The translations under genes and the position numbers were made by a program. A model generated the notes under the pieces. That model saw only the letters and a list, made by a program, of their open reading frames with translations. It had not been told where the DNA came from and made no database searches. Shown piece after piece: positions 37,589 to 56,880 of a DNA stretch of 64,000 nt (position 1 is the stretch's first letter; each line of letters starts with the position of its first letter). The stretch comes from Eunapius fragilis (lineage: Eukaryota > Porifera > Demospongiae > Spongillida > Spongillidae): positions 4,558,317-4,622,316 of the forward strand of contig OY811981.1 in assembly GCA_963681505.1 (NCBI GenBank), in the 5' to 3' direction.

Positions 37589-38136
37589 TAGTCTCGTCCC
37601 CAGACCCAACGGACGCAGCTGCGGATGGATTACATCACCGCTACGCGTCAGTAGGGTCTGAGGGCACGTTGGATTCGATCGCTTCGCCTTGTAGAGAAGG
37701 ATATTAAAGCTTACCATCGCGTGTGCAGCCGTCACTTTCCTTTGGATGGACAAAGCGATCCCCTTGACCTGTATCCAGTTGGATTAAGTGCGGATGTAAA
37801 TGTCATTCCTGAAGGGAACAGTGGTCAGGATTCACTTGGGGTTCGAAGCCCATCTGAAATGGAAGTTCCTGTACATGCAGTTACATGTAGTGTGGCCACT
37901 AGTACTGTGGCGGCGACCTAGATACACTCTTGTCCAACTTACGAGTCATTTTACACACGACACATACGTCTCCCGTCATGATTCTACACAGGAAGAACTC
38001 CGGAAGTGACGCGTTTAAGAATAATTGCATTCCTTACGCCGTTAAAGGGAAGGGTCTATTTCTCCAGACCCTACTGACGCGTAGCGTTGATGTAATCCAT
38101 CCGCTGCTGCGTCCGTTGGGTCTGGGGACGAGACTA
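37589..38136. mobile_element. 548-bp P-element-like TIR transposon with THAP-domain remnant
   Basis: Inverted ends TAGTCTCGTCCCCAGACCC and its complement, extending about 75 bp inward through ggattacatcaccgctacgc (left) and its partner in the right arm. It is flanked on both sides by GCCGCCCGA, a perfect 8-9 bp target duplication. Inside, on the plus strand, 37668-37790 reads WIRSLRLVEKDIKAYHRVCS, then RHFPLDGQ, the second half of a THAP zinc finger (C..HF). A THAP domain together with 8-bp duplications points to the P-element superfamily. No catalytic region remains. It sits in the presumed intron of composite copy A. Confidence 0.78.
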
Positions 38137-38751: not shown

Positions 38752-39599
38752 TTTTAGAAAAACAACTTCACTATGGCCAAAGTAACAACTGAACTACATT
38801 TAGTGCAGGTTAGAGACCTAAAATTATTAATAAATATATATGGGACGGTGTCCAGCAAAATCACCCTTCTGGAGTTTTAATTTTATCACTATAAAAATTG
38901 TACGTTACAAAAAGCAACATATCTTCACAACGGTTTCATATTTTCTTTTCAAATTTCGTACTCTTGTTCACACATCAGTTCTCTCTGTGCAAACCGAATT
39001 TGGTGCTCTAGATATGTTCCATGCCATGGTTATAAAGGTCTCTAACCCAATGGGTTAACATTCCACATTTCTCCAGATACGAGTGACGATAACATGTCAA
39101 ATTTGGAGTGTACATAGAAGGGTCCTGTAGCTATTGATTTCTGCAGATCGTTGCGTTTTTTCTTATCCGTTACGGAGATATGGATTTTCAAAGTAATTCG
39201 ACATTTCGCGCCACTCACCCTATTCCAATATGCCATTATGTAATGGCACGCCCTTTAAATTTGAAGTTAGGTAATTAACTCCGCTTTGATCGTATATAAG
39301 CGATCGTACCTCGTACGCTACGTTTCAACATAAAACAGTATCGTACATTCACATGTATCGCTTATGCTGGATCTGTGAATATTCATGGAGTTTATATTGT
39401 GCACCCTTTTTCTATATCTGCTCAGTTTGTGGCATGTACATGTAAGCATGCACGTACCATGCCTTCTAATCATGGGGCCCCTTCTTCACCCTCTACACTA
39501 GTCTGGGGACCAGATGACTTGCTTGCGACAGTCAGTTATCTGGTACACAAACTGCAGTACCTTTACTTAGTATGGCATATCACTCTAGACCATTCATAT

Positions 39600-41560
39600 T
39601 CACTGCCCTTCTTTCTTTCTTACCTCCCCCCCTCCTCCTCTTCCTATCTTCCTTCATCCACCCATCCTCCTCCTCCTCCCCTCCTCCTCCTTCTTTTACT
39701 CCCTCTCATTTTCCCTCCTACCTTCCCTCCTATTACACATAACACCCCTCCTCCTTTCTTTTGATTGCATCCACACCTCCCCCTCCTCCTCCTACTTCTA
39801 CGTTCCTACCTGTTGCATCCTCCCCTCCTCCTTTCTTTTTCCCGTTGCATTTACGCCCAACTTCTCCTCCCCCTCCTCTACGTCCTTCTCCTCCTCTTCC
39901 TATCTTCCTTCATCCACCCATCCTCCTCCTCCTTCCTCCTTCTCCCTCCTCCTCACCTCCCCTTCTCCTCCTCTTACTCCCTCTCATTTTCCCTCCTACC
40001 TTCCTTCTTATTACACCTACCCCTCCCCTCCTTTTTTTGATTGCATCCAAACCTCCCCTCCTCCTCCTCATCCTCCTACTTCTATCTTCCTACCCGTTGC
40101 ATCCTTCCCTCCTCCCATTCTTCTTCCCGTTGCATCCACTCCCCACCTTCTTCTCCCTCTTCTCTACCTCCTTCTCCTCCTCTTCCTATCTTCCTTNNNN
40201 NNNNNNNNNNNNNNNNNNNNNNNNNNNNNNNNNNNNNNNNNNNNNNNNNNNNNNNNNNNNNNNNNNNNNNNNNNNNNNNNNNNNNNNNNNNNNNNNNNNN
40301 NNNNNNNNNNNNNNNNNNNNNNNNNNNNNNNNNNNNNNNNNNNNNNNNNNNNNNNNNNNNNNNNNNNNNNNNNNNNNNNNNNNNNNNNNNNNNNNNCCTC
40401 CTCCCCTCCCCCTCCTACTCCTCTTACTCCTCTCATTTTTCCCTCCCACCTTCCTTCCTATTACACCTACCCCTCCCCCTCCTCCTTTCTTTTGATTGCA
40501 TCCACACCTCCCCCTCCTCCTCCACCTACTTCCACCTTCCTACCTGTTGCAACCTCCCCACCTCCCCCTCCATCCACCCATCCTCCTCCTCTCCTCCCCT
40601 CCCTCCTCCTCCTCCTATCTTCCTTCATCCACCCATTCTCCTCCTCTCCTCTCTCCCTCCTCCTCCTCCTCATCTCCCCCTCCTCTCCTCACCCTCCTCC
40701 TCCTCTTACTCCTCTCATTTCCCTCCTACCTTCCTTCCTATCACCTACCCCTCCCCCTCCTTTCTTTTGATTGCATCAAACCTCCCGTCCTCCCCCTCCT
40801 CCTCCTTCCATTCTTCCCATTGCATCCAGCCCACCTTCTCCTCTACCTCCTCCTCTTCCTATCTTCCCTCATCCACTCATCCTCCCCTCCCCTCTCCCTC
40901 CTCCTCCTCCTCCTATCTTCATCACCATCCTCCTCCTCTCCGTCTCCCCTCCTCTACCCTCCTCCTCTCCTCCTCCCCTTCCCATCCCCTCCTCGCCTCT
41001 TACTCCCTCTCATTTTCTCTCCTACCCTCCTTCCTATTAACCTAACCCCCTACTCCTCCTTTTGTTTTGATTGCATCCACACCTCCCCTCCTCCTCATCC
41101 TCCCGCTACTTCTACCTTCTACCTGTTGCATCCTCCTCCTCCTTCCATTCTTCCGTTGCATCCACACCCACCTTCTCTCCTCCTCTACCCCCTCTTCTAT
41201 CTCCATCATCCTCCCCTCCCCTCCCCTCCTCTCCTCTTCCTCCTCTCCCTCCTCTCCCTCCTTTTCTTCCTATCTTCCTTCATCCACCCATCCTCCCCTC
41301 CTCCTCCCTCCTCCTCTCTCCTCCCTCCTCCATTCTTTGATTGCATCCACACCTCCTCCTCATCCTCCTACTTTTACCTTCCTACCTGTTGCATCCTCCC
41401 TCTCCTCCCCCTCCTCCATTCTTCCTGTGCATCCACCCCCCACCTTCTCCTCCCCTTCCTCTACCTCCTTCTCCTCCTCCTACCCCCATCCTCCTCCTTC
41501 TACCTTTCTTCCCATTGCATCCACCCTCCTCCTCCTCCTCCTTTCCATTGTATAAATAAA
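39600..41560 (+). repeat. pyrimidine-rich array, left arm of the palindrome
   Basis: About 2 kb of almost pure C/T on plus, built of units of about 270-300 bp that each contain gattgcatccacacctcccc, cctgttgcatcc and atcttccttcatccaccc. It contains the assembly gap. Pyrimidine-only strands cannot form stop codons, so every frame is open and the long Ser/Pro/Leu ORFs have no meaning. Confidence 0.9.
40197..40396. other. assembly gap (200 N)
   Basis: Exactly 200 undetermined bases inside the tandem array, probably of placeholder length. Confidence 1.
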
Positions 41561-41783
41561 TGATAAGAGACATGTGTCGGAAGATACAATTCCTTATTTA
41601 TCCAGCTTTAAAACTATTGGTATTGTAAGTCAATGTGTTGTAAATTTGCAAGCACCCGGAATCATTTTGGCACTTCAGCATATATAATGTTCTAGCAATA
41701 TAACCTTTCATGGGTTATTAAAAAGGTGATGATGCAACAACCTAGTAGGCACTGCCAACAATTAGTCAGGGACATCAGATGCT

Positions 41784-41814
<31 letters not shown>

Positions 41815-42229
41815 TTACTTATAGTGTACTTTGTTTATGGAAAGACCTTAGTGCTATGACATGCACGCATGTAGTTCAAAACTACTTGTTCTAACTTCCA
41901 TGTAGAGCGTACAAGGTACTTGGATTCTACCATGTACCATTCTACCATGCTTGCTTGTCTAAGTAAACCACTGGCCACCCACAATCTGTACTGATAAGGG
42001 TATAATAATATTCATAAAGGCTTATACCAACATACATTCCCTTGTGTAGAGCTCTAGAGTTCAGTTCTTGCACAGGCTCTGTATATAATCTCTTATAATA
42101 GCCTTTTCTAGTTGCATGTAGTTTGCCCATCCCAAAAAATACATTCCGCTGACTCCTAGGTGAAAACATATATATCGAGGTGAACACTTCCTTTGAAACA
42201 AAGTGGTTTATATTAAATACCCTCCCTAC
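41561..42229. other. centre spacer of the palindrome
   Basis: About 670 bp of ordinary mixed sequence between the two arrays, with a C homopolymer near 41784-41811. I see no inverted symmetry and no gene in it. The open frame that enters from the purine-rich array ends here at 41942. Confidence 0.6.
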
Positions 42230-45200
42230 CCAAGAAGATGGAAGGGGAGGAGGAGAATGAGGAGGAGGTAGAGGAGGGGGGAGGAGGTAGAGGAGGGGGA
42301 GGAGGTAGAGGAGGGGGGAGAAGGTAGAGGAGGGGGAGTAGGTAGAGGAGGGGGAGGAGGTAGAGGAGAGGGAGGAGGAGGTAGAGGAGGGGGAGAAGGA
42401 GGAGGTAGAGGAGGGGGGTGGGGAGGTAGAGGATGAGGAGGAGGAACAGGAGGAAGTAAAGGAGGGAGAGGGATGGGTGCAACTGGAAGAATGGAAGGAG
42501 GAAGAGAGGGAGGAGGGGAGGATGCAACCAGTAAGAAGGTAGAAGTAGGAGGATGAGGAGAAGGAGGAGGGGGAGGTGTGGATGGAAGGAGGAGGGGGAG
42601 GGGGAGGTGTGGATGCAAGGAGGAGGGGGAGGGGGAGGTGTAATAGGAAGGAAGGTAGAAGGGAAAATGAGAGGGAGTAAGAGGAGGAGGATGAGGGGGA
42701 GGAGAGGAGGAGAGGAGGAGGAGGGGAGGAGGAGGGAGGAGGATGGGTGGATGAAGGAAGATAGGAGGAGGAGGGGGAGGGGAGGAAGAGGAGAGGAGGA
42801 GGATGGGTGGACGCAAGAAGATAGGAAGAGGAGGTAGATGAGGAAAAGGAGGTAGAGGAAGAGGAGGAGAAGGTGGGGGTGGATGCAACGGGTAGAATGG
42901 AAGGAGGAGGAGGGGAGGATGCAATAGGTAGGAAGGTAGACGTAGGAGAATGAGGAGGAGGAGGGGAGGTGTAGATGAAATTAAAAGAAAGGTGGAGGGG
43001 GAGGGGGAGGTGTAATGGGAAGGAAGGTAGGAGGTAAAATGAGAGGGAGTAAGAGGAGGAGGAGGGGGAGAGAGGAGGAAGAGTTGAAGATGGGAGGAGG
43101 ATGGGTGGATGAAGGAAGATAGGAGGAGGGGAGAGGAGGAGGAGGAGAGGAGGAAGATGGGTGGATGAAGGAAGATAGGAAGAGGAGGGAGAAGAGGGGG
43201 AGGAGAAGGTGGGAGTGGATGCAATGGGAAGAATGGAAGGAGGAAGAGGGGGAGGATGCAACGGGTAGGAAGGTAGAAGTAGGAGGATGAGGAGGATGAG
43301 GAGGAAGAGAAGGGGGAGGTGTGGATGCAATGAAATGAAAGGAGGAGGGGTAGGTGTAATAGGAAGGAAGGTAGGAGGGAAAATGAGACGAGTAAGAGGA
43401 GGAGGAGGGGAAGGAGAGGAGGAGGAGGAAGGGAGGAGGTGGGGAGAATGGGGAGGAGGATGGGTGGATGAAGGAAGATAGGCTGAGGAGGGAGAAGAGG
43501 AGAAGGAGGTAGAGGAGGGGGAGGATGCAACGGGTAGAATGGAAGGAGGAGGAGGGGAGGATGCAATGAGTAGGAAGGTAGAAGTAGGAGGATGAGGAGG
43601 AGGGGGAGGTGTGGATGCAATCAAAACAAAGGAGGAGGGGAGGGGTAGGTGTAATAGGAAGGAAGGTAGGAGGAAAAATGAGAGGGAGTAAGAGGAGGAG
43701 GAGGGGAGGGGAGGAGGAGGGGAGGGGAGGAGGAGGGGAGGGGAGGAAGAGGGGAGGGGAGGAGGAGGGGAGGAGGAGGAGGAGGGGATGAGGAGGAGGG
43801 AAGGAGGAGGATGGGAGGAGGAGGATGGGTGGATGAAGGAAGATAGGAAGAGGAGGGAGAAGAGGAGAAGGAGGTAGAGGAGGGGAAGGAGAAGGTGGGG
43901 GTGGATGCAACGGAAAGAATGGAAGGAGGAGGGGAGGATGCAACGGGTAGGAAGGTAGAAGTAGGGGAGGGGAGGAGGAGGGGAGGAGGAGAGGAGAAGA
44001 GGGGAGGAGGGTAGGAGGAGGAGGGGAGGAGGAGGAGGGGAGGAGGGGAGGAGGAGGGGAGGTGGAGGGGAGGAGGGAGGAGGAGGGAGGAGGAGGGGAG
44101 GAGGATGGGTGGATGAAGATAGGAGGAGGAGGAGGGGGAGAGGAGGGAGGAGGGGAGGAGAGGAGGAGGGGAGGAGGAGGATGGGTAGATGAAGAAAGAT
44201 AGGCAGAGGAGAAGGAGGTAGAGGAGGGGGAGGAAAAGGTGGGGTGGATGCAACGGGAAGAATGGAAGGAGGAGGAGGGGGAGGAGGGGAGGATGCAACG
44301 GGTAGGAAGATAAAAGTAGGAGGATGAGGAGGAGGAGGGGAGGTGTGGATGCAATCAAAAGAAAGGAGGGGGTAGGTGTAATAGGATAGAAGGTAGGTTG
44401 AAAAATGAGAGGAGTAAGAGGAGGGGAGGAGGGGAGGAGGAGGACGAGGGGAGGAGGAGGAGGGAGTAGGGGAGGAGGAGGGAGTAGGGGAGGAGGAGGA
44501 GGGAGTAGGGGAGGAGGAGGAGGGAGTAGGGGAGGAGGAGGAGGGAGTAGGGGAGGAGGAGGAGGGAGTAGGGGAGGAGGAGGAGGGAGTAGGGGAGGAG
44601 GAGGAGGGAGTAGGGGAGGAGGAGGAGGGAGTAGGGGAGGAGGAGGAGGGAGTAGGGGAGGAGGAGGAGGGAGTAGGGGAGGAGGAGGAGGGAGTAGGGG
44701 AGGAGGAGGAGGGAGTAGGGGAGGAGGAGGAGGGAGTAGGGGAGGAGGAGGAGGGAGTAGGGGAGGAGGAGGAGGGAGTAGGGGAGGAGGAGGAGGGAGG
44801 AGGGGAGGAGGAGGAGGGAGTAGGGGAGGAGGAGGAGGGAGTAGGGGAGGAGGAGGAGGGAGTAGGGGAGGAGGAGGAGGGAGTAGGGGAGGAGGAGGAG
44901 GGAGTAGGGGAGGAGGAGGAGGGGAGGAGGAGGATGGGTGGATAAAAGAAGATAGGAAGAGGAGGTCGGAGAGGAGGAGAAGAAGGTAGAGGAGGGGGAG
45001 GAGAAGGTGGGGTGGATGCAACGGGTAGAAAGGTAGAATTAGAATGAGGAGGAGGGGGAGGTGTGGATGCAATGAAACGAAACGAGGAGGGGGTTGGTGT
45101 AATAGGAAGAAAGGTAGGAGGGAAAATGAGATGGAGTAAGAGGAGGAGGAGGGGAAGGAGAGGAGGAGGGGAAGAAGAGGAGGAGGAGGAAGGGAGGAGG

Positions 45201-46195
45201 AGGGAAGAATGGGGAGGAGGATGGGTGGATGAAGGAAGATAGGAGGAGGAGGGGAGGAGAGGAGGAGGATGGGTGGATGGAGGGGGAGGATGCAACGGGT
45301 AGGAAGGTAGAAGTAGGAGGATGAGGAGGAGGGGAGGTGTGGATGCAATCAAAAGAAAGGAGGGTGAGGGGTAGGTGTAATAGGAAGGAAGGTAGGAGGG
45401 AAATGAGAGGGAGTAAGAGGAGGAGGAGGAGAGGAGGAGGATGGGAGGAGGAGGAGGGGAGGAGGATGGGTAGATGAAGATAGGAGGAGGAGGAGGGGGA
45501 GAGGAGGAGGGGAGGAGAGGAGGAGAGAGGAGGAGGGGAGGAGGAGGATGAGTGGATGAAGGAAGATAGGAAGAGGAGAAGAACGAGGTAGAGGAGAGGG
45601 AGGAGAAGGTGGGGAGTGGATGCAACGGGAAGAAGAATGGGAGGAGGGGAGGAGGGAAGGATGCAACGGGTAGGAAGATAGAAGTAGGAGGATGAGGAGG
45701 AGGAGGGGAGGTTTGGATGCAATCAAAAAAAGGAGGGGAGGGGTAGGTGTAATAAGAAGGAAGGTAGGAGGGAAAATGAGAGGGAGTAAGAGGAGGAGAA
45801 GGGGAGGTGAGGAGGAGGGAGGAGGAGGAAGGAGGAGGAGGGGAGGAGGAGGATGGGTGGATGAAGGAAGATAGGAAGAGGAGGAGAAGGACGTAGAGGA
45901 GGGGGAGGAGAAGTTGGGCGTAAATGCAACGGGAAAAAGAAAGGAGGAGGGGAGGATGCAACAGGTAGGAACGTAGAAGTAGGAGGATGAGGAGGAGGAG
46001 GGGGAGGTGTGGATGCAATCAAAAGAAAGGAGGAGGGGTGTTATGTGTAATAGGAGGGAAGGTAGGAGGGAAAATGAGAGGGAGTAAAAGAAGGAGGAGG
46101 AGGAGAGGAGGAGGGGAGGAGGAGGAGGATGGGTGGATGAAGGAAGATAGGAAGAGGTGGAGGGAGAGGAGGAGGAGGAGGAGGGGGAGGAGGTA
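42230..46195 (-). repeat. purine-rich array, right arm of the palindrome
   Basis: About 4 kb of almost pure A/G on plus, the inverted counterpart of 39600-41560, with the same internal marks (ggtgtggatgcaatcaaaa, ggatgcaacgggtaggaagg). It is about twice as long as the left array, so either the arms have expanded unequally or the gap hides sequence. Confidence 0.9.
44440..44925. repeat. 21-bp minisatellite nested in the purine-rich arm
   Basis: About 22 near-perfect copies of gggagtaggggaggaggag plus ga. A 21-bp unit gives Gly/Ser/Arg heptapeptide repeats on plus and SSSSPTP repeats on minus; neither is likely to be translated. It has no counterpart in the visible left arm. Confidence 0.92.
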
Positions 46196-46417
46196 AGAAA
46201 GAAAGAAGGGCAGTGAATATGAATGGTCTAGAGAGATATGCCATACTAAGTAAAGGTACTGCAGTTTGTGTACCAGATAACTGACTGTCGCAAGCAAGTC
46301 ATCTGGTCCCCAGACTAGTGTAGTGGGCCCCATGATTAGAAGGCATGGTACGTGCATGCTTACATGTACATGCCACAAACTGAGCAGATATAGAAAAAGG
46401 GTGCACGATATAAACTA

Positions 46418-52417: not shown

Positions 52418-54193
52418 CAGTGGGTGTTCGATTATAAGACCACCCGATTATAAGACCATAAAGTGCCGCTATCGATGTTAGAATTTACCTAAATGCAATT
52501 AAGGCCACAATGATTATAATATGAATATTTGATTCTAAATATTCGCGTTTTTTTGGCGGGTTTGTCAGTGTGTGTAGTATGGAGACGCCTGGCTCTGCGC
52601 CTAAGGCAAAGGCAAAGAGAAAGAAGAACAGCGCTGGCAGCCCAGTAGAAGAGCAAAGAAATGAATTTCTTAAAGGTACCAGAAAGGGGAGAAGGGTGCT
52701 AGATGTACAGAAAAAGCTTGATGTCATCGAAATGCTTGATAAAGGAAAGACCCAGAGGGAGGTAGCAGCAGAGTTGGGCGTATCAAAAACTCAAGTTTTA
52801 AACATTAGTCGCTGCAGAGCAGCGCTATATAAACGTCAACTTACCTCAAAGGTAGCGAAATTTGGCAAATTTGCGGACATTGACAAGGCTGTATTTGATT
52901 GGTTTTGTCGCGTGAGAACACCAGTGGGACTCCGCAAGCCTTTACCCGTATCACTAGCTACTTTGCAAGCTCGTGCTCGCCATGAGGCAAGATTAAGAAA
53001 TGTTCATAACTTCAAAGCGTCAGATGGGTGGGTTAGGCGATGGCGTAAGCGATTTAATGTCCCACCAAGTGTTCACCTCCATGGTGAAGCGGGAGATATT
53101 TGTCTGATTGATGCTGAAAAGAAGATGGATGTTTTGCGTTCTCAACTTAGTGAGGGGGGCTATGCTTTACAGAATATATTTAACATGGACGAAACGGGGC
53201 TTTTTTACCGAGCGTTACCTAAGCGGAGTTATGTATTACCAGACGTTGATGTGAGGCAAAAAGGAAGAGGGACAAAAGCTTTGACTGCTAAGGATCGAGT
53301 GACTTTAGTGCTTTGTTGCAATGCTACTGGTACTTGTAAAGTAAAGTTGCCCCATTGATGATTGGTACATCAAAAAATCCCCGCTGTTTCAAAAAACAAA
53401 GGCCACCGTTTCCATATACCTCACAGCCCAATGCATGGAGTGATGGAGAACGCTTTAAATTCTGGTTTAATGATGTATTCCTACCCTGCATTCGAAAATG
53501 GACAGACTCCAAAGTGGCTCTCCTTTTAGATGGGTTCTCTGGCCATTGCAAAGACATTGGTGATCCTAAGGGTCAAGTCTCAGTTTTGTTTTTCCCACCT
53601 AATTTGACCTCAATGTATCAGCCGCTTGACCAAGGCATCATTTCAGCTGTAAAGTGTACTTACAAGTATTGTGTTCTGGACAGGTTACTGACAGGCATTG
53701 ATAAGTATGATGAATTGCACCTAATGGCTAGCCACATTGTAGCTGGATGTCGAGGGCTTGAATACTGCTTACCTCCAAATCTGCTTGATACAGCTATCAT
53801 CTGGAAAAATGCATGGGATGAATTGGACCAATCAGTTATTGTCTCTTGCTGGGTGCACTCTCATTGCCTTCCTGTTACAGATGAAGCCATTGTGGCAAGT
53901 GAACACCGTGACTATCGCAAAGCTACCACTGATAGTATTGTAACAAAAATGTGTGATCAACTGAAGAGTCTTGACTTGCAATCTGACAGCACTGTTGGTA
54001 CACTCCAATCAATTGGAATTTTAGATGCAGTCAGTGCTGTGGGGAAAGGGGACACCTCGCTGATGGAGAAATGGATAGACGTTGAGGATGACCAAGAAGT
54101 TGCAGCATCTATTGAATTGCAAGTCCTTGACAAAATTTGTAGTGATTTGGATGAAGCTGCAGTTGAACAGCCTGATGATGGTGGTGGTGGTGG

Positions 54194-54233
<40 letters not shown>

Positions 54234-54917
54234 GGTGACAATGGCCTGGAGAAGCCTCCTGTCACCAAAGAATTCAGTGAAAAAATGTTGATGGCTGCAC
54301 GTCAGGCACACTGCATTGCTGGTGAGCTCAACGATCCACAGCTGTTATCCATTGCCAAACAGTTATGGTTGTCTGCACACAGCAAATTGATCATAGCTGG
54401 TAAAGTGTAGCTCTCTTGAACATATACCACAACAACTTTGTATTGCTGTCTTGTGCTAGTTTGGGGACCAGCCCATAAATATGTTGGTCCCTATACTAGT
54501 TTCATTTTGTTCATTTATGGTTGAATATGTTATCACGTGTGCAGGTGAATGTGGGATCAGGTCTCTATGCATGTATAGGGTAGGAACGTACAAAGGTCTT
54601 TATTTCAAGCGAGACCGACCTATATAAGCACATGCAATGCGTTGATGATTGGCCGACCGGCGACCATGCATGCACAGCACCATCCTCAATCTCGTAATTT
54701 GTAGCAATGTAACGAAAGATTTGTAATATGGTGGTATCGATCGATTGATACAAACGTTTGCGATCGAGCGTATGCAGTTATTTAAAAAGTTATGTCGCGT
54801 GCACTGGATTTTCGGTACAATCCCAGTACATTGTAAACAACTGTGGTTTCTTAATCTCATCGATAGCGGCACTTTATGGTCTTATAATCGGGTGGTCTTA
54901 TAATCGAACACCCACTG
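52418..54917 (+). mobile_element. 2.5-kb Tigger/pogo-type DNA transposon
   Basis: Inverted ends CAGTGGGTGTTCGATTATAA and its complement. The inverted identity is about 60 bp and includes an internal duplicate ccgattataagacca. TA precedes the left end (52416-52417). The expected TA after the right end is not visible, although the tandem sister copy at 51705-52105 shows the unoccupied site (gacgctagttaagttttatt). It contains one transposase gene on plus. Confidence 0.88.
52579..54410 (+). pseudogene. Tigger/pogo transposase (CENP-B/DDE_1 type), one frameshift
   Basis: Cut-and-paste transposase of the IS630-Tc1-pogo group. In order: a basic N-terminus, a psq-type helix-turn-helix (LDVQKKLDVIEMLDKGKTQR, VAAELGVSKTQV), a CENP-B-type second DNA-binding helix bundle (SDGWVRRWRKRFNV), then the catalytic domain with NMDETGLFYR (first Asp), LLLDGFSGHC (second Asp) and MYQPLDQGII (third Asp). 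An acidic run (about 13 Asp) precedes the C-terminus. The frame breaks at about 53345-53358, where the upstream frame stops at TGA 53356 and the downstream frame takes over, so the gene needs a one-base correction. Otherwise it is intact and ends at 54410. A recent but inactive copy. The ATG at 52579 is the first in frame. Confidence 0.88.
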
Positions 54918-55107
54918 TTTTATTAATGACTTCATCAACCCCCAATCAATCCTTTATTGAACCTGCTGCCGCAGGTTCAGATTCATACAGTTAGTACATG
55001 CACATGGCTAGACAACAAGGTTTAAGATAAGGAAGCCTTCAGATAAGGAAGCCATTTTATACATCACATTAAAACAATAGACACTACTGTACACACAGTT
55101 GTCACCA
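54918..55107 (-). repeat. composite copy D, left part
   Basis: Continues the interrupted 5' flank with the hairpin (54955-54978), then matches copy B sequence around 50550-50660 (acatggctagac, gataaggaagccttc, aaaacaatagacact) up to the P-like insertion. Confidence 0.6.
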
Positions 55108-55292
55108 TAGTCGCGTACCCAGACCCTCAATCCCACAGCTGCGGGTGGATTACATCACCGCTACGTGGAAAGAGGTAGATCGAACTTTTTGGTTCTGAAT
55201 GTTATGCAATTATTGTGTCGTCATAAGTGTCGTCATCGTGTAATTAAGTGCGGAATGAATCCTGTTCGGTGTATGTGTCGAACTGCTCGCAA

Positions 55293-55458
55293 ACACAGGA
55301 AAAAAAATCGTGTTCCGGACCTTGGGTTTTAACCTATCGACCATGGGATCTGTTCCATCAAACGTATTCAAAGTCTTTGAATACGTTTGATGGAACAGAT
55401 CCCATGGTCGATAGGTTAAAACCCAAGGTCCGGAACACGATTTTTTTCCCTGTGAAAG
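55293..55458. repeat. near-perfect hairpin, arms about 75-80 bp, almost no loop
   Basis: The left half (55295-55373, with cgtgttccggaccttgggtt) is repeated in reverse complement from 55376 onwards, the turn being caaagtctttg. The right half runs directly into the PIGN-derived frame. It looks like an inverted duplication formed inside the transposon. Confidence 0.85.
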
Positions 55459-55469
55459 ACGACAATTGG

Positions 55470-56386
55470 GAAGGCATACGCAGGACTCTAGTCTTTGTAC
55501 CGCGCAGCTTAGGGTCAAGACGGAGCGCACACAGAACAGCTCTCCCTTTGCTCTTCAGACCCTTCCCGGGCTGTTGCCCGCCGAGCTTTCCAAGAGGATG
55601 GCCGAGATTGATACTCTAATAAACGCCCACCATGTCCAGAGGGCCGTGGACCTGTCCCGCAGGCTCATAGCTCTGTGCAAAGAGGGCATGAGGTACTACC
55701 ACACCTACTACAGGCTGCCCCTCAAGGTTGCCATGACGGCAGGCTTCGTGGGTTGGCTGGCGTGTGTGCTTGTGGCCATCCCCAGCAAAAAGTTCTTGAA
55801 CAAGATTCCTGCCCAAGATCTTGCCCAACTTGCCAAGATTATGCCGGCCAAGATCTTACCCAAGATATGGCAAGATCTCAGCCTCCTGGCAAGATCTCAG
55901 CCTCCTGGCAAGATCTCAGCCTCCTGGCAAGATCTTGGCCTCCTGCCAAGATCTTGCTCTTCTTGGCAAGAATCTTGCCCAAGAACTTTTTTCTGAGTCT
56001 TGGAGGAGAAGTTGCCTCCTTCTTGTAGGAGGGTGGGAGCTAATAGTGGAGGGGTGGGGCACTGCAGCCCTAAGATTATGCTAGTAGCCACAGTGGTGGC
56101 CATTGTTATGGTTCTTTGGTACCAATCCTCCCCCATCCAGTATTACTGGTACTACGCGCTGCCTCTCGTCTGTTTGTCCTATGTGTGGGTGCGGAGGTCC
56201 GCGTTCCGTGCCGCCTGGCAAGGGATGGCAACCAATCGCGTGCTGCTCTTGAAGGGGACAGTGCACCTGGTGGGTGTGGTGGTGGGCTTGGAAGCCCTTG
56301 TCATGAGCTTCTTCTATCGGGAGGTGCTCTCTGCTGTCCTTGTGGTTGTCTCCATCTTGCAGTCAGTCTTTGGGATGCACGAATAA
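55470..56386 (+). pseudogene. PIGN: captured fragment of a GPI ethanolamine-phosphate transferase 1 (PIGN)-like gene
   Basis: PIGN adds ethanolamine phosphate to the first mannose of GPI precursors in the ER; its C-terminal half is a multi-pass membrane domain. Here 55500-55800 reads AQLRVKTERTQNSSPFALQT, then VQRAVDLSRRLIALCKEGMR, YYHTYYRLPLKVAM and FVGWLACVLVAIPSKK. These match the family segment around LCKELI...YYHTY...FVGW. A degenerate 25-27-bp tandem repeat (caagatctcagcctcctgg, 55855-55985) interrupts, then 56075-56386 continues with MLVATVVAIVMVLWYQSSPI, WYYALPLVCLSYVW and LEALVMSFFYREVLSAVLVV to a stop. Only part of the membrane domain is present, the catalytic N-terminal domain is absent, and no host-type exons flank it. 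Confidence 0.75.
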
Positions 56387-56615
56387 TAATGGCGTCTAGC
56401 GAGTTAGTCCCCGACATTCTAATCGCTGCTTGACTCATTATTGCTATGGAATGCAATTACAATGTTGCAACCGTGACGTCAGACCATGCTGCAATCTGAT
56501 TGGTCCTCCGAAATCGAGGAAAGTCAAAACCAAAATGTTCGATCTATGCTCTTTCCACGTAGCGGTGATGTAATCCACCCGCAGCTGTGGGATTGAGGGT
56601 CTGGGTACGAGACTA

Positions 56616-56880
56616 GAGTCACCATGCATGCTTTACATGTGAAGTGAATGGTTTTGTGCAGATCCGTGCTGTACATAGTCGGGCGGGCCCTACTACCGCG
56701 TTTGGTCAGGTAGTACGGTGGCAAGCCCGACCAAACACCGCCCGACTACGCTCTACAAATGTTGCATGCACAGCTTTTTAACGTTAATACAACATGCCAT
56801 AACATACCTTTGGGTGGTAGTGGTAGTTCTGTGACCCTGCGGTACCGCGTCCTCTCGGCAGCACATTTAGCCAATCCATA
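56616..56880 (-). pseudogene. composite copy D, remnant of intron and end of lysine-rich exon
   Basis: Matches copy B at 50663-50900: gtgaatggttttgtgcagat, the inverted actaccgcgtttggtcagg segment, then the splice-donor region cataacatacctttgggtgg and the exon end encoding RLAKCAAERTRYRR. It stops abruptly at about 56878. Confidence 0.6.

Follow-up and report, generated by a model that had tools for sequence, protein, structure and literature searches.

The window analysed here, 64,000 nucleotides of the Eunapius fragilis genome (C11:4558317-4622316 of a 219-Mb, 24-contig assembly), contains a non-autonomous transposon of 1508 bp at positions 55108-56615. Its cargo is, by profile and alignment, a fragment of PIGN, a gene that helps to build membrane anchors for proteins. 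A first-pass annotation of this DNA had described a single capturing element. The capture stands, but its extent was understated, as the PIGN segment occurs at about 62 places on 20 of the 24 contigs (matches merged within 3 kb). Given this number, and given that 34 of the 35 places that we read carry at least one of the element's termini, it is an amplified Pack-type element. Altogether, it is very likely a cut-and-paste transposon that spread with its PIGN cargo, presumably mobilized in trans, and that also took in nested insertions.

The inverted termini, which the first-pass annotation had recognized, measure about 91 bp and enclose the element. The outer arms (55101-55174 and 56549-56622, 74 nt) are 95% complementary and a second pair (55176-55198 and 56524-56546, 23 nt) is 91% complementary. 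The left terminal inverted repeat (55108-55198, plus strand) starts TAGTCGCGTACCCAGACC, and the right one (56524-56615, minus strand) starts TAGTCTCGTACCCAGACC when read on the minus strand. Target-site duplications, assigned to neither strand, flank the element as TTGTCACCA on the left (55099-55107) and GAGTCACCA on the right (56616-56624), and agree at 7 of 9 positions. A flanking duplication had been recognized correctly, but it had been described as a near-perfect repeat of 8 bp. Its length is 9 bp, because 25 of the 37 elements with these termini that we tabulated have a perfect duplication at 9 bp. With up to one mismatch the figure rises to 29 of 37, a table in which one element (C15) ends at the locus edge and does not allow its duplication to be judged. 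Perfect matches of 6, 7, and 8 bp occur once each, all at a single poly-C site.

Comparison with L086 (C14:2251200-2252600), an element whose ends are the same as those of the window element and whose inside is different and lacks PIGN, places the edges of the capture. On the left, identity ends at GGAAGGCAT (55477), and on the right it resumes near 56365. The left transposon backbone (55199-55477, plus strand) is therefore common to L086 as far as that point and is interrupted by a palindrome. The right backbone (56365-56523, minus strand) has a minus-strand reading, MSQAAIRMSGTNSLDAIIIRASQRL, that by eye recalls how a RecQ-like gene in L086 begins. No transposase was found within the element, in agreement with the first-pass annotation; the two ORFs scanned against profiles match PigN over the cut-off and otherwise two families far below their cut-offs, and the remaining ORFs were judged by eye. 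Just upstream, at 52525-54410 of the window, two ORFs resemble by eye a pogo/Tigger-type transposase. The window also holds several kb of low-complexity repeat (39589-46227), in which both strands have very long ORFs and a run of N is present.

Two ORFs in the same frame (55415-55996 and 55997-56386), separated in the window copy by an in-frame TGA, match the PigN profile PF04987 with E 2.2e-10 and 3.3e-15. Both matches exceed the curated cut-off, and they cover profile positions 1-37 and 58-156. By the profile and the alignment to human PIGN, the captured coding sequence lies on the plus strand in two parts, 55500-55780 and 55998-56346. The captured segment comes to about 600 bp. Between the two parts sits a nested fold-back/minisatellite insertion (55780-55997, without assigned strand) with termini beginning CCCAGCAAAAAGTTC. 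A cargo peptide assembled by hand aligns with residues 370-576 of human PIGN at 64 of 215 identical positions (E 4e-22), colinearly and with no intron-like break. GC content at the three codon positions is 0.58/0.43/0.76 and 0.58/0.39/0.72 in the two parts, close to the values for the first exon of host PIGN (0.59/0.44/0.67); the backbone (0.47) and the window (0.42) differ from it. Searches of the PDB with the two cargo ORFs gave nothing useful. The profile and alignment bear out the earlier description of PIGN-like coding sequence inside the element. Together with elements that share the termini and lack the fragment, they also support the broader claim of a transposase-less transposon with a captured piece of PIGN.

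How widely has this cargo spread? As the searches scored the best candidates, the count of about 62 places is a minimum where weak copies are concerned. It also includes some segmental duplicates or weak rows (a C9 pair is identical, and C1:16269074 has E 2.76 with PF04987 and 0.2 with human PIGN). Genome-wide, PF04987 has 86 matches, none starting past profile position 93, and the three that extend past position 165 do so through stop codons. Both termini flank the cargo at 24 of the 35 places read, and the sole place without a terminus, L088, is a broken fragment. The 37-element table includes 18 elements with cargo, 13 of which show perfect 9-bp duplications that all differ from one another. 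Adding C2_2321 (10-bp duplication), C4_7050 (8/9), the window copy (7/9), and L097 (perfect) brings the number of separate insertions to at least 17. In view of the termini at 34 of the 35 places read and of the differing duplications, we set aside a host gene family or plain pseudogenes. Copies differ by 0.7-4.2% from their majority sequence, and the family is recently amplified. One of the places, L097 (C20:3342600-3344200), represents a sub-family of several near-identical copies that holds the first cargo part only, with a poly-G tract bordering the cargo on its left.

The PIGN element belongs to a much larger family defined by its termini. Genome-wide, the terminal pattern TAGTCNCGTACCCAGACC is found 1008+958 times and its reversed control 0+1 times, a frequency beyond chance. 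Among the 100 terminus places listed, which span the first 7.6 Mb of contig C1, there are 31 inward-facing pairs of under 12 kb, 19 of which measure at most 206 bp. The first-pass annotation had suggested a search for other copies of the termini, and elements L068-L083 and L086 indeed share them and lack the PIGN segment. L086 itself has seven copies of a minisatellite of about 31 bp plus RecQ-like stretches (LPTGSGKS and SPLTALMKDQV, RecQ-like by eye); two of its ORFs had no match in Pfam. Another relative, L072, matches a DEAD helicase (E 1.2e-6) and RecQ structures (best E 6.6e-5). The PIGN element's own backbone, compared by eye, resembles RecQ. The window holds a second element with related termini at 37589-38136, with a perfect 9-bp duplication, GCCGCCCGA, and a fragment that resembles THAP (PF05485, E 0.0027, a sub-cut-off match). 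A search of a phage collection with the THAP-like ORF, which was of little use, found nothing.

The first-pass annotation had noted an internal hairpin and a small minisatellite. Both are present where they were described, but they are later nested insertions and stand outside the capture. The hairpin (55294-55454, 161 bp, no assigned strand) has 80-nt arms that are 99% complementary with 1 nt between them. It is a palindromic mini-transposon with ends CACAG..CTGTG and a 3-bp duplication, AAA. Among the 35 read places it is found at one, the window copy, and L089 and L090 retain an intact empty site, GCTCGCAAA/GACGAC. Elsewhere in the genome the palindrome forms a family of its own. Scoring 40 of 214 candidates gave at least 40 places, and seven of them, including the window copy, are at 100%. 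All three places read have 3-bp duplications and the same ends, which recall CACTA elements. This palindrome family is young, and its separate existence led us to reject a functional role for the hairpin within the PIGN element.

The minisatellite (about 55868-55962), in which four 38-nt copies overlap and follow one another every 19 nt, is the older of the two insertions. A block matching it over at least 60 nt is present at 26 of the 35 read places. It is cleanly absent from L047, L049, and L090, which retain the empty site GCCATC/TTGGA. These three cluster in a midpoint-rooted FastTree of 23 copies, in which support inside the group is low. We rejected an intron as the explanation, as no GT-AG edges are visible by eye and the empty site exists in three copies.

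Where did the cargo come from? The first exon of the host PIGN gene lies at C6:1396561-1397160, is 59% identical to human residues 7-209 (E 6e-74), and runs for more than 200 codons without an intron. The other 48 of the 49 matches to human PIGN cover residues 366-488, and all lie at cargo places. A 200-N stretch directly follows the first exon. The next 6 kb, within L096 (C6:1396300-1403300), yielded no further PIGN and are largely minisatellite-like. The human query did not find the better-conserved residues 210-365 either. It also overlooked the second cargo part, which dozens of copies contain, and its misses are therefore weak evidence where exons have diverged. The phosphodiesterase profile PF01663 gave nine rows in the genome. 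The row on C6 is PIGN exon 1, and the regions read on C10, C19, and C22 have no convincing PIGN match; one of them, L095, gave a weak row to human residues 209-286 (E 0.015). The first-pass annotation had counted the absence of an intact PIGN gene as an argument against capture. This does not apply here: the first exon exists, and the part that matches the cargo is not assembled.

We infer that the capture was from this host's own PIGN. Alternatively, the piece could have arrived with the transposon from another species by horizontal transfer, a view favored by the fact that no place in the assembly holds the cargo-matching part of PIGN outside the element copies. However, the first host exon has similar GC by codon position. 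Moreover, the host gene enters the 200-N stretch right after that exon, which accounts for the missing donor. We therefore consider horizontal transfer very unlikely.

In the history that we propose, an internally deleted member of the large terminal-inverted-repeat family would have had its interior replaced by about 600 bp of PIGN, perhaps through gap repair or a template switch. A full-length relative may then have provided, in trans, the transposase that carried the element to dozens of sites, with a 9-bp target duplication at each. One lineage gained the fold-back minisatellite insertion in its cargo and then amplified, and the window copy later received the palindromic mini-transposon.

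Does the cargo do anything? The first-pass annotation had raised the idea of a useful protein or of transcripts, an idea that finds no support here. With 431:1063 expected, the distinct changes from the majority among 30 copies comprise 49 synonymous and 124 non-synonymous ones, a ratio of 1.03; five of the changes are stops. Stop codons interrupt several copies, and the in-frame stop between the window copy's ORFs has been described above. At the level of sequence, the cargo appears to be under no clear coding constraint. A function for the copies, as a protein or as an RNA that regulates host PIGN, could appeal to the several copies that retain open frames of at least 300 codons. It could also appeal to a third-position excess in the differences to the majority when these are summed over copies (83, 97, and 145 at codon positions 1-3), although summing counts inherited changes many times. 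The summed figures leave room for some old coding constraint on the cargo, although distinct changes, which number 62, 49, and 64 at the same positions, show none. We regard a present function as highly improbable. The cargo is most likely a passenger, and the element family is probably without function for the host.

Which enzyme moves these termini? A composite element at C1:3453603-3464071 (L091, L092; 10,469 bp) ends in the same terminus on either side, with identity over 64 nt, and has an 8/9 duplication. Its internal inverted repeats mark it as two fused elements. Half A encodes DUF6589 (E 3.9e-36), Helicase_C (3.4e-15), and RecQ_Zn_bind (8.9e-6), with a sub-threshold zf-AD match (0.078). 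Half B encodes P-type RNase H domains (PF21787, E 2.6e-19; PF21789, E 7.4e-9), which lie 3 kb from the right end of the composite. L072 is a deletion derivative of half A that has both termini and a perfect 9-bp duplication. We lean, tentatively and well short of conviction, toward a DUF6589/RecQ-helicase transposon lineage in which DUF6589 would be the transposase or assist it and the P-type half of the composite would hitchhike. DUF6589 has 116 matches in the genome. In the first 7.6 Mb of C1, an exact, inward-facing terminus is no more than 3.1 kb away from three of six DUF6589 loci, one of four P-type loci, and none of four MULE loci, where chance predicts 0.039 per locus; the locus numbers are small, and the 3.1-kb cut-off was picked after the distances had been seen. 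At 5 kb the same stretch gives three, one, and one, respectively, where chance predicts 0.060. One of the three supporting DUF6589 loci is the composite itself, however, and the other two (C1:1363557 and C1:7282987) are known by their terminus distance only. Against this lineage, DUF6589 has no solved relative (phmmer, E up to 1), and our literature search gave no paper that names it. We know of no described transposase activity for this domain.

The P-type domains between these termini in the composite bear on the first-pass annotation's view of the element as P-like. In its favor, a P-type transposase occurs once between such termini; a strict P-superfamily identity, with mobilization by a P-type (THAP9-like) enzyme, is plausible but somewhat doubtful. 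The second element in the window, with its related termini and weak, sub-cut-off THAP match, adds to it. However, only one of the four P-type loci on C1 is near an inward-facing terminus, that one being the composite, and the link between the termini and DUF6589/RecQ-type elements is no weaker. A PDB search with the P-type piece gave nothing useful (the best row, E 0.017, is an unrelated reductase), and a literature search for P elements combined with RecQ found nothing. Mutator-like elements show 9-bp duplications and long termini. These traits are present here, and the genome has 46 matches to the MULE domain, which would fit a true animal Pack-MULE. However, the termini are present in none of 15 MULE loci read with 1.5-kb flanks, and the one C1 MULE locus within 5 kb of a terminus is near a 139-bp element. 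No MULE locus that was read carries the termini; we set this identity aside as quite unlikely, and we consider any enzyme other than the DUF6589/RecQ and P types, MULE included, less likely than either. As for the signature of a P element, described members, including zebrafish Pdre2/THAP9, have 8-bp duplications and termini of 13 or 31 bp in the available parts of PMC7776569 and PMC10983969. Like P elements, the family has internally deleted copies in abundance and, in one composite, the P-type RNase H domain. Unlike the P elements in those parts, it has 9-bp duplications, termini of about 91 bp that start TAGTC, and ends common to the DUF6589/RecQ half. We have therefore set aside a true P element by signature.

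High-copy gene-carrying transposons are usually counted as a plant phenomenon. Plant Pack-MULEs combine capture of coding fragments and amplification with long termini and 9-bp duplications, and the PIGN element shows each of these traits. Unlike Pack-MULEs, it has termini with which no MULE transposase was found. In animals, the available part of PMC8277862 reports 370 Pack-TIRs in 100 genomes, mostly hAT (208) and TcMariner (115), and no Pack-MULE among the animals surveyed. Four multicopy cases are given there and attributed to transposition after template switching; the one detailed has three copies, and the fly Ssk-FB4 family is also given. Like these animal Pack-TIRs, as that part of the survey describes them, the PIGN element is a non-autonomous inverted-repeat transposon that carries a host gene fragment in multiple copies. 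Unlike them, it occupies about 62 places and its termini fit neither hAT nor TcMariner. Our literature search found no description of a PIGN-carrying family with these termini, which may still have been described. An amplified element that carries PIGN is unusual for an animal transposon.

Why might such an element arise here? One speculative and, in our judgment, rather unlikely scenario is that the termini mark a previously undescribed lineage of animal transposons, one that makes 9-bp duplications and has genes for both DUF6589 and a RecQ-like helicase. DUF6589 would be the transposase, and the helicase would make template-switch repair unusually frequent, so that pieces of host genes such as PIGN are captured and amplified. 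More generally, an animal family of recent origin that numbers dozens of copies, with a datable order from capture through minisatellite to amplification and a candidate autonomous relative, would let the mechanism of capture be tested. The family could also be used to test whether the copies affect their parent gene. Finally, termini that are common to DUF6589/RecQ and P-type elements pose a clean question as to which enzyme moves them.
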